Positions 15,683 through 21,437 of a stretch of 33,003 bases of DNA are shown piece after piece. Both the position numbers and the translations under genes were made by a program. The DNA lies in NCBI GenBank assembly GCA_902530685.1, contig CACAAZ010000015.1:1-33003 (forward strand), in the 5' to 3' direction. Source of the DNA: an uncultured Alphaproteobacteria bacterium. GTDB lineage: Bacteria; Pseudomonadota; Alphaproteobacteria; HIMB59; GCA-002718135. The first letter of the stretch is position 1; every line of letters begins with the position of its first letter. A model generated the notes under the pieces. The model ran no database searches. It saw only the letters and a program-made list of their open reading frames with translations, and was not told the DNA's origin.

Positions 15683-16012
15683 CTAAAACACCATTCTTAC
15701 TAAATTAATTGTTATTAAAATCATGATAAAATAAACAAGACAATTAATTACTACATTAATCAATTTAGCTGTTTTTTTCGATGTGACATAATCTTCAATA
15801 ATTGTTTGAAGTCCTAATTTTGAATGAAGAAGCATAGATTGCATCATAATAAAAAATAAGAATGCATTAAAATAGGATTGAAAAAAAATTTCAATTTCAG
15901 AATAAGTCATTTTTGATAACGATATTGCAGAATATATAAACCAAAAGGTTAGCGGAATTAAAATAGAAGCAGTAATTCTTTGGGTTAGCCATTTAAAAGC
16001 ATAGTTTTTCAT
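15683..16012 (-). CDS. sdhD: Succinate dehydrogenase membrane anchor subunit D
   Basis: A 109-residue protein with three predicted membrane segments that, with SdhC, anchors the enzyme and forms the ubiquinone and heme b site. It carries LLHSKLGLQTIIEDYV, in which His63 corresponds to the SdhD heme ligand and Asp74-Tyr75 to the conserved quinone-site pair. I chose the ATG at 16012 because it forms a four-base ATGA overlap with the sdhC stop; a TTG at 16024 would add four residues. The N-terminal WLTQRITASIL segment is typical of the family. Confidence 0.9.
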   Translation of the reverse strand: MKNYAFKWLTQRITASILIPLTFWFIYSAISLSKMTYSEIEIFFQSYFNAFLFFIMMQSMLLHSKLGLQTIIEDYVTSKKTAKLINVVINCLVYFIMILITINLVRMVF

Positions 16013-16389
16013 GCAAAATACCAAACGACTAAACTTGAAATTAAAGTAAGAAACAATACTACATAGCCAGATTTATAAACTTGAGATAATTCCATTCCAA
16101 TACCAAACGACCAATATAATTTTCTACAGCCATTAAACAAATGGTAAAAAATACCAATAGTCCAAATCATTAATACTAATTTGAACAAAATACTTTTAGA
16201 GAGAATTTCAAAATAATTATAGAATTCAGGACCAGAACTTATTAAGAAAAACCAAATCGAAATCAACAATGCCCCTATACTTAACCCAATTCCAGATATT
16301 CTGTGGAAGATTGAAAAGACTGCTGTGAGCACTTTTTTATGAATGGATAGATGAGGTGATAATGGTCTATTATCAGTCATTTTTTTCAT
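16009..16389 (-). CDS. sdhC: Succinate dehydrogenase cytochrome b556 subunit C
   Basis: First gene of the TCA operon. The 126-residue protein has RPLSPHLSIH near the N-terminus, SIFHRISGIGLS (Ser26 and Arg30 match quinone-site residues of E. coli SdhC), three membrane segments, and YHLFNGCRKLYW, where His83 matches the heme b ligand. A second His seven residues later in E. coli (GIRH) is Lys here (GCRK); that residue is not the axial ligand. Two starts are possible: ATG at 16389 or the in-frame ATG at 16380, which gives MTDNRPLSPH and is closer to typical family N-termini. Neither has a clear Shine-Dalgarno sequence. Confidence 0.92.
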   Translation of the reverse strand: MKKMTDNRPLSPHLSIHKKVLTAVFSIFHRISGIGLSIGALLISIWFFLISSGPEFYNYFEILSKSILFKLVLMIWTIGIFYHLFNGCRKLYWSFGIGMELSQVYKSGYVVLFLTLISSLVVWYFA

Positions 16390-16582
16390 TTTTATTACAA
16401 TTTTTATTTAGTAATTTATTCATAAATATCAAAATATAAGTGAATTTATATTCTAACTTACTATCATGGAACTAAACTGAAATGTTGATAAAAAATGCTG
16501 AAATTCATCAAAATGAAAGGAAATTGCAATCAATTTTAACTAAAAATCTTGTAATTTAATTAGATAGATATTACTCTAACTG
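16390..16582. other. Intergenic region upstream of the sdhC-lpdA operon
   Basis: This 193-base AT-rich stretch must hold the control region of the minus-strand TCA operon and the plus-strand start of the adjacent RNA candidate. I see no ORF and no known riboswitch. On the minus strand there are several AT-rich -10-like boxes (for example TAGAAT about 110 bases from sdhC) but none has a convincing -35 partner, so I do not assign an operon promoter. A short inverted repeat, TTCAT-CAAA-ATGAA near 16503-16516, is too small to interpret. Confidence 0.4.
16549..16577 (+). promoter_or_regulatory. Candidate promoter of the structured RNA
   Basis: TTGTAA (16549-16554) and TACTCT (16572-16577) are separated by 17 bases. 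A start six bases further on, about 16583, coincides with the first paired base of the closing stem of the RNA candidate. The -10 box is weak (three of six matches, but with the key TA and final T), so the support comes mainly from this positional agreement. Confidence 0.4.
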
Positions 16583-16718
16583 AGCCGGATTATACTCGCT
16601 TCTTAGCTTCGGAGGAACGCCAGGAAATTTGATCGTCTTACCCGCCGTTTGATGGTTATATGAGTTTCAATACTAGAGAAGTGTCTGCCAAGGTACCTAC
16701 TAGTTGAGAAATCCGGCT
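16583..16718 (+). ncRNA. Structured non-coding RNA candidate (possibly 6S-like)
   Basis: By hand count 62 of 136 bases are G or C (46%), far above the flanking AT-rich DNA, as expected for a structural RNA in a low-GC genome. The ends form a perfect closing stem: 16583-16591 pairs with 16710-16718. Inside, 16597-16604 pairs with 16676-16683 (eight pairs, two of them G-U), leaving a short left strand and a long right strand (16684-16709) as a large asymmetric internal bubble; the apical part is weakly structured. The G-U pairs become A-C mismatches on the other strand, which favours the plus strand, as does the promoter-like pair upstream. No ORF fits. Size and the stem-bubble-stem plan recall 6S RNA, but I cannot match conserved sequence; tmRNA, SRP RNA and RNase P hallmarks are absent. 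The 3' end touches the stop codon of the convergent hydrolase gene. No clear terminator is visible. Confidence 0.6.
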
Positions 16719-17704
16719 TATTTCAGAACTTTATTAAAAAATTCCTCCATCTTATCAGAATATATATCAGGATACTTAAACATAGAGTCTATGTGATAAG
16801 CATTTTCTACTAACCAAAACTCAGCATTGATTTTATTTTTATTTGAATATTCTTTAAAATAATTAAAATGTTTTTTTAAGACTCTAGTATCAGAGCCACC
16901 ATGAGTAAAAAAATAGAATTGTTTATTTGATAATTTTTTAGCTGGAGATAAGCCATTTGGATCTATTCCTGTTAAAATTCTACCTGCCAAACTTACAGCT
17001 GGTCCAAATTCTATTGCAAGACCGTATCTTGCTATTTCATCTTTTAAAATCATATTAAATTCAGCAAGTGAACTATCAGCCCACACTGCAAGTATTTCTG
17101 ATTCTGCATTTGCTGCAAAAATAGATGTACTGGCTCCAAGAGAGATTCCATGCAAACCTATACTATTAGACTTGAAACCAATCTTTTTTAAAAAATCGAA
17201 TGCACCAAGAATATCATTATAAGACTTTAAACCTAAATCATCATAACGACTTACAGTATCACTTTGTCCATAGTTTCTTAAATCTATTGTAAGAACATTA
17301 AATTTTTTATTAACTAAAAAACTTGCAATGATGTTAGACTCAGCCTTACACTTACCATTTGGACTGATACCGTGTGTTACAATTATTATTGGTCTATTTG
17401 GAAAATAATTAAACAACCATCCATTAATCTTAATATCAGCGTCACGAGATGTAAAATATACATCTTGCCATTCATCTAAATAATAGTCTTTAAAGTTAAA
17501 GTTTTTTCTAACTGTTTGTCTTTCAAGAATTGAATATTCATTTAAATCAACAGTTGTACTCCATGAATTAGGTAAGGATCCCTCATGTTTACCACAAGTT
17601 GGATCTATTTTTAAAATTTGATAAGCAACATAAAAACCTATGGTAAAATAAAGTACTGCCAATAAAACTATTGCACTAATTAAAATTCTAATAGTGTGTT
17701 TCAT
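16718..17704 (-). CDS. Membrane-anchored alpha/beta hydrolase
   Basis: A 328-residue protein with one N-terminal membrane segment (about residues 5-29), which likely anchors the enzyme facing the periplasm. The hydrolase domain shows the oxyanion HG dipeptide in IIIVTHGIS (about 108-116), LRNYGQSD, and the nucleophile elbow G-I-S-L-G with Ser188 in LHGISLGAS. A late Asp (THGGSDTRV) and His (NAYHIDS) can complete the triad. It resembles the broad BEM46/serine-aminopeptidase-like group; the substrate is unknown. The start overlaps the zapE stop by one base, so it is the last gene of the chain 20753 to 16718. Its sequence is not close to the tandem hydrolases at 2553-4462, which carry different motifs. 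Confidence 0.7.
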   Translation of the reverse strand: MKHTIRILISAIVLLAVLYFTIGFYVAYQILKIDPTCGKHEGSLPNSWSTTVDLNEYSILERQTVRKNFNFKDYYLDEWQDVYFTSRDADIKINGWLFNYFPNRPIIIVTHGISPNGKCKAESNIIASFLVNKKFNVLTIDLRNYGQSDTVSRYDDLGLKSYNDILGAFDFLKKIGFKSNSIGLHGISLGASTSIFAANAESEILAVWADSSLAEFNMILKDEIARYGLAIEFGPAVSLAGRILTGIDPNGLSPAKKLSNKQFYFFTHGGSDTRVLKKHFNYFKEYSNKNKINAEFWLVENAYHIDSMFKYPDIYSDKMEEFFNKVLK

Positions 17705-21362: not shown

Positions 21363-21437
21363 GGTCTCGTGGTGAAATGGATATCACACGTGTCTTCGGA
21401 ACATGGATTTGGGGTTCGAGTCCCTACGAGACCGCCA
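21363..21437 (+). tRNA. tRNA-Arg (anticodon UCG)
   Basis: A full cloverleaf can be drawn by hand. The acceptor stem GGTCTCG pairs with CGAGACC, the D arm is GTGA...TCAC, and the anticodon stem CGTGT/ACATG encloses the loop CTTCGGA with anticodon TCG, which reads CGA and probably other CGN arginine codons. The variable loop is short (four bases) and the T arm TGGGG-TTCGAGT-CCCTA has the standard T-loop. The discriminator is G and CCA is encoded (21435-21437). Confidence 0.96.

Follow-up and report, generated by a model that had tools for sequence, protein, structure and literature searches.

A Conserved Structured Small RNA Gene Divergent from sdhC in the Alphaproteobacterial Order HIMB59 and Its Candidate Pairing with the ftsZ Start

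A segment of about 134 nt lying between sdhC and an alpha/beta-hydrolase gene is almost certainly a plus-strand small RNA gene whose family is uncatalogued so far. The best reading of its function, suggested by sequence complementarity and held with modest confidence, is that the RNA probably pairs with the start of ftsZ and masks it without Hfq. The case for an RNA gene rests on conservation and covariation, not on folding energy, which is unremarkable (plus strand z −1.48, with 16 of 200 shuffles as good; minus strand z −0.79).

Position, Promoter, and Neighbors of the RNA Gene

The window, meaning the whole stretch of 33,003 nt that was analyzed, is contig C15 of genome G000, an assembly of 1.05 Mb in 45 contigs that is 56% complete. 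The order HIMB59 has two families, GCA002718135 (mean 1.70 Mb) and HIMB59 (mean 1.47 Mb), according to excerpts of PMC10734472. Hereafter, f1 is the window's family and f2 its sister family in the same order; genome G146 belongs to genus g5 of f1, and genome G061 to f2. The features around the RNA are as follows:

16549..16554, plus strand: −35 element TTGTAA (TTGAAW in relatives), from the sequence
16572..16577, plus strand: −10 element TACTCT, separated from the −35 element by 17 nt, a sequence reading
16584..16717, plus strand: small RNA of about 134 nt, predicted start 16583 or 16584, on the basis of relatives, covariation, and the strand test
16009..16389, minus strand: sdhC, which opens the divergent cluster, from Pfam domains
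16718..17704, minus strand: alpha/beta-hydrolase gene, convergent, its stop codon abutting the RNA 3' end

The minus-strand cluster has the order sdhCDAB-mdh-sucCD-sucAB-lpd (Pfam domains, with gene names inferred), and on the other flank of the RNA a gene for an AFG1-like ATPase comes after the alpha/beta hydrolase (Pfam domains). Elsewhere in the window, a tRNA-Arg (TCG) at 21363-21437 (+) is both the sole Rfam gathering-score match and the sole ARAGORN match.

An earlier sequence-only reading had singled out this segment for a GC content of about 46% in AT-rich surroundings, and the composition was borne out, with 45.6% at 16583-16718 against 19.3% at 16391-16582 and 31.1% in the whole window; only 0.4% of the window's 136-nt stretches reach the segment's value. 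The perfect nine-pair closing stem described there is present, the ends AGCCGGATT and AATCCGGCT forming 9 bp, as is the promoter-like pair predicting a start at the first paired base (TTGTAA, 17 nt, TACTCT, start at about 16583-16584). The −35 element is located 35-37 nt before the first base of the outer helix P1 in 44/44 distinct sequences, a count in which locus L135 was read by eye and L138 was read after shifting its start 24 nt upstream.

Distribution and Conservation

A covariance model was derived from alignment A2, which comprises 37 distinct sequences (40 distinct sequences minus L077, cut by the locus end, and with identical cores merged). It matched 80 of the 162 genomes of the order with one copy each. 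Of these, 73 belong to the genus of the window, counting G000, and 7 to five sister genera; the RNA is present in all six searched genera of f1. An exact pattern taken from the RNA occurred at 54 places in genome contigs. When G000 and 100 relatives were searched at the DNA level, 44 of the 101 genomes had matches at E<=0.1, two of these being short, chance-level matches in f2. Among genomes of the window's genus that had no RNA match, the absence looks like missing assembly: 23 of the 26 tested had no sdhC match, and the remaining three have contigs that break off within sdhC or directly beside it on the upstream side.

The gene neighborhood is retained together with the RNA. In all eight loci examined (the seven sister-genus loci and G060), sdhC adjoins the RNA, and an ORF of hydrolase length lies on the RNA's other side in the seven sister-genus loci, with a hydrolase confirmed by tblastn in both that were tested, L136 and L139. 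The identity of the RNA to that of the window is 67-88% in seven representatives; the DNA 51-150 nt upstream of it shows 52-60% identity versus 54% in shuffled controls.

In family f2, model R2 gave a single hit in 30 genomes, at E 0.24, which was not accepted, and the class-wide search with this model matched 3/385 genomes, these being G000, G137, and, weakly, G532. The G532 match (G532:C1:324802-324892; 21.7 bits, E 0.029) lies in another alphaproteobacterial family. Two viral contigs sharing an exact 18-nt match with the RNA were also considered and set aside; they look unrelated beyond those 18 nt.

Conserved Fold and Strand

The conserved fold is multibranched, with helix P1 enclosing both hairpin C and a helix P2 that in turn encloses hairpins A and B. 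All parts lie on the plus strand:

16584..16590, plus strand: P1 5' arm GCCGGAT, with compensatory changes at 4/7 P1 pairs, three of them in L139 only
16711..16717, plus strand: P1 3' arm ATCCGGC, from the covariation alignment
16594..16597, plus strand: P2 5' arm ACTC, with one-sided variation only
16662..16665, plus strand: P2 3' arm GAGT, from the covariation alignment
16600..16626, plus strand: hairpin A, loop GGAG, with GGAGGAAC in 21/21 family-wide sequences
16630..16658, plus strand: hairpin B, loop TTACCCGCCGTTT, with compensatory change at 5/8 stem pairs
16642..16650, plus strand: CCGCCGTTT in the loop of hairpin B, complement of AAACGGCGG at the ftsZ start
16673..16703, plus strand: hairpin C, CTAG...GTGTCT-GCCA-AGGTAC...CTAG, nearly invariant

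In alignment A2, 98.3% of cells are paired and six pairs show compensatory change. Covariation among relatives, which the sequence-only reading had proposed as a check, was observed. In the family-wide alignment A5 (21 sequences), 98.0% of cells are paired and 12/39 pairs are compensatory, four of them in P1, three in hairpin A, and five in hairpin B. None of 500 shuffles reached the observed A5 values and slid versions pair 31-45%, figures to be read with the fitting of A5 to the model, which favors the structure, and with a shuffle test that ignores relatedness. A single divergent sequence, L139, accounts for six of the 12, namely the three in hairpin A plus three of the four in P1; the hairpin B pairs and one P1 pair draw their compensatory support from other sequences. 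In hairpin C, the outer stem varies one-sidedly and the inner stem hardly varies. The model misplaced P1 in L138 by 24 nt in the downstream direction; both promoter and GCCGGA arm can be seen in that sequence.

The earlier observation of G-U pairs that are valid on the plus strand only extends to the whole family, with 142 G-U versus 0 A-C cells in A2 and 102 versus 1 in A5, and the fold therefore suits the plus strand alone. A weak match to the RNA model (28 bits) was observed at L135:3194-3300 on the minus strand, opposite a true copy; it was found with model R1, was left out of A5 by the E-value limit, and is probably a by-product of self-complementary stems. A short reading frame over hairpins A and B, seen by eye in the window, was discarded, since the alignments preserve neither its start codon nor its frame (a by-eye reading).

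Comparison with Known RNAs and the Neighboring Operon

Rfam gave nothing at gathering scores at the site; with the limit relaxed to E<=10, the hits were chance-level eukaryotic families, all in the flanks. The sequence-only reading was right to see a plus-strand gene for a structured RNA that is unassigned, specific to its lineage, and divergent from sdhC. No description of the RNA was found in the excerpts covered of the open-licence literature on HIMB59, SAR11, and Pelagibacter small RNAs, ftsZ, and 6S, nor is HIMB59 mentioned in the portions covered of the metatranscriptome paper PMC5069720.

RNase P RNA (RF00010) was rejected as an identity; it is located elsewhere, with a match in 45/61 genomes and, in G000, at C19. 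A possible likeness of hairpin A to a stretch of 16S prompted a test of rRNA mimicry or pairing, which was rejected: against the 5.4-kb contig bearing the 16S gene of the genome, shuffles scored as high in 123/200 (sense) and 102/200 (antisense). The suggestion that the RNA might regulate the sdh operon found no support when tested as pairing with the sdhC start region, where shuffled RNAs were often as good; 38 to 165 of 200 shuffled RNAs equaled the pairing in six of seven genomes, and 21/200 did so in the seventh (L139). Only its position ties the RNA to the TCA operon. Hfq (PF17209) was searched for in 13 genomes of the order, of which 12 have a completeness of 90% or more, and matched none, with a positive control in Caulobacter.

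The ftsZ Start as a Candidate Target

The 9-nt stretch CCGCCGTTT is found in 37/37 A2 sequences, and CCGCCG in 21/21 A5 sequences; this invariant loop is complementary to the ribosome-binding site of ftsZ. ORF starts, defined mechanically as the first ATG, GTG, or TTG in every ORF of 100 codons or more (spurious ORFs among them), were scanned from −40 to +15 across 393 kb of G000, 717 kb of G146, and 1.28 Mb of G061, whose ftsZ genes are FtsZ by TIGR00065. From motif density, the matches expected per start were 0.00038, 0.00031, and 0.00027 in G000, G146, and G061, respectively. In G000, CGGCGG occurs at 1/414 ORF starts, that of ftsZ, and the site with its flank offers nine contiguous pairs with CCGCCGUUU. 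The ftsZ start of G146 retains AAAAACGGCGGAGA and is the sole CGGCGG start among 763, the contiguous pairing between loop and ftsZ there being 6 bp; this match is not independent of that in G000 because it is shared by descent. Complementarity to the ftsZ ribosome-binding site is present in three genomes (G061, with the element of its own family, is treated below), which are all those in which ftsZ was seen.

Other measures bear on how specific this match is. By duplex energy it is not significant, as 41/300 shuffled loops had an equally good start, and in G000 one spurious-looking start outranks ftsZ. Nine-nucleotide complements between the whole RNA and ORF starts are common, at 9 starts in G000, 16 in G146, and 23 in G061. 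Folding predictions place 2/9 of the loop bases in pairs in G000 and 1/6 in G146. Loop B is no more invariant than hairpins A and C, which the ftsZ model leaves unexplained. The C-rich loop that would face a Shine-Dalgarno sequence has one candidate target, with mixed predicted accessibility.

A Different Element at the Same Place in the Sister Family

At nine f2 loci (L145-L153), the DNA upstream of sdhC holds a different structured element of 82-133 nt, whose orientation with respect to sdhC matches that of the f1 RNA. It consists of a closing stem AGGUCG/CGACCU, an inner stem, and a hairpin UCUCA-CCCCGCA-UGAG, whose loop CCCCGCA is identical in 9/9 loci; an example is L145:2019-2113 (+). 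In seven distinct rows, 91.3% of cells are paired and 4/18 pairs are compensatory, and the seven loci searched gave zero Rfam matches at E<=1. The branching order differs from that of the f1 RNA, a possible homologue. In G061, the gene next on the element's strand encodes a membrane protein, read as a transporter subunit, so the element may be a leader of that gene.

The test of the f2 loop against ftsZ was fixed in writing before the f2 ftsZ was located. The G061 ftsZ start is TTTGCGGGGATAAAATG, in which TGCGGGG exactly complements the loop CCCCGCA (7/7); this heptamer is present at 1/1340 G061 ORF starts, with 0.00027 expected per start, and under a laxer count (at least seven contiguous matches to a 9-nt loop query) 2/1340 starts qualify. 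The site is predicted to be largely paired within its own mRNA. The Shine-Dalgarno region of ftsZ and the loop read CGGCGG/CCGCCG in the two f1 genomes and UGCGGGG/CCCCGCA in the f2 genome, and the complement of the other family's loop is found at none of the three ftsZ starts (G000, G146, and G061).

Proposed Mechanism and Alternative Explanations

In the mechanism proposed, the RNA would act in trans and independently of Hfq. Hairpin B would expose its C-rich loop (CCGCCG, plus UUU in the window's genus), and this loop would pair with ftsZ mRNA at the complementary G-rich Shine-Dalgarno region. Such pairing would block ribosome binding and lower FtsZ synthesis. In f2, a different element at the same place would offer its loop CCCCGCA to the site UGCGGGG of its own ftsZ. 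The wider proposal, put forward tentatively, is that in these streamlined ocean bacteria the ftsZ start and a structured RNA beside the TCA operon have evolved in concert, the RNA being a chaperone-free, lineage-wide brake coupling respiratory metabolism to division.

The alternative that deserves most weight, rather unlikely as it is, would be a protein-binding structured RNA, regulatory or housekeeping, that acts via hairpins A and C on a partner such as RNA polymerase or a ribosomal or other RNA-binding protein, the ftsZ match being a coincidence or a side effect. The near invariance of hairpin C and of GGAGGAAC in hairpin A across the family, paired bases included, is what such binding could explain, and neither Hfq (13 genomes) nor 6S RNA was found in the genomes searched, so that a functional replacement of 6S is conceivable. 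However, the match between loop and ftsZ recurs in f2 with another sequence, and the fold is unlike that of 6S.

A pairing RNA acting in trans whose main targets are other mRNAs, reached through hairpin C or another segment, appears improbable. In G000, 14 nt at the start of a MarR-like ORF, its family assigned by eye (L175:6504 in G000:C6, + strand, ATGGCAGACACTTCT), are perfectly complementary to 16677-16690 in hairpin C, but that protein has no relative at E 1e-3 in the fetched stretches of G146 and G061, and on present data it therefore leaves the family-wide invariance of hairpin C unexplained.

The 6S RNA is one long hairpin with a central bubble that binds RNA polymerase and templates product RNAs. 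The sequence-only reading had been reminded of it by a plan of stem, large bubble, and stem, a plan that gave way to the multibranched fold, which is no single hairpin with a bubble; the resemblance found no echo in RF00013 either, which has zero matches at the site at E<=10. The likeness to 6S RNA comprises size class and paired ends, and the difference fold and profile. RF00013 matched none of 101 genomes, G000 among them together with 100 relatives, at E<=0.1 and none of 16 genomes of the order, 15 of them at least 90% complete, at E<=10, with a positive control in Caulobacter. A 6S RNA diverged past Rfam recognition is very improbable: the similar length class, the closing stem, and the 16 genomes without another 6S speak for it, and the compensatory support for a multibranched fold and the silence of RF00013 speak against it. 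For Pelagibacter, Meyer et al. 2009 give tmRNA, SRP RNA, and RNase P, and the main text, in the excerpts covered, is without the term 6S RNA (PMC2704228). Finally, a cis element on the minus strand, as an sdhC leader or the 3' end of the hydrolase mRNA, would suit the strand of both flanking genes and is the least probable of all, given the 142 G-U versus 0 A-C cells on the plus strand, the conserved plus-strand promoter, and the RNA of G060, intact at 132 bits where the hydrolase has decayed (L140:3393-3758, with residues 7-97 and 287-328 left).

Comparison with Known Systems and Significance

Pairing of the f1 RNA with the ftsZ start, the reading preferred here, would have precedents, since small RNAs that block ftsZ and C-rich small RNAs in a bacterium where Hfq lacks a global role are already known. 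Excerpts of PMC5069750 describe DicF, a 53-nt RNA borne by the Qin prophage of E. coli, as pairing with the ftsZ ribosome-binding site and repressing it, with Hfq important for this repression. The present RNA has the ftsZ ribosome-binding site in common with DicF, as a prediction here, and is without any Rfam match. In Klebsiella, DinR pairs at the ftsZ translation start; it is processed from the 3' end of the dinI mRNA, depends on Hfq, and is SOS-controlled (PMC10907235, in excerpt). The Hfq dependence of the DicF/DinR type is unlike the order of the present RNA, where 0/13 genomes had Hfq. In Bacillus subtilis, RoxS and FsrA reach their mRNA targets through C-rich regions and Hfq has no global role, as stated in portions of PMC8216469. 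The present RNA has a C-rich loop that may act likewise. RoxS and FsrA have metabolic genes as targets, sdh and suc among them; homology to them was compared through Rfam only. Two further alphaproteobacterial small RNAs, StsR and UpsM of Rhodobacter sphaeroides, are linked with the dcw cluster. Their likeness to the present RNA is by description only.

The ftsZ reading predicts CGGCGG at every f1 ftsZ start and GCGGGG in f2, and a new RNA family would be added in marine bacteria where neither Hfq nor 6S RNA was found. If the pairing with ftsZ is true, it would mean that RNA control of cell division has been kept across a family without Hfq, and the two families, with their different loops and targets, would amount to a natural compensatory experiment.
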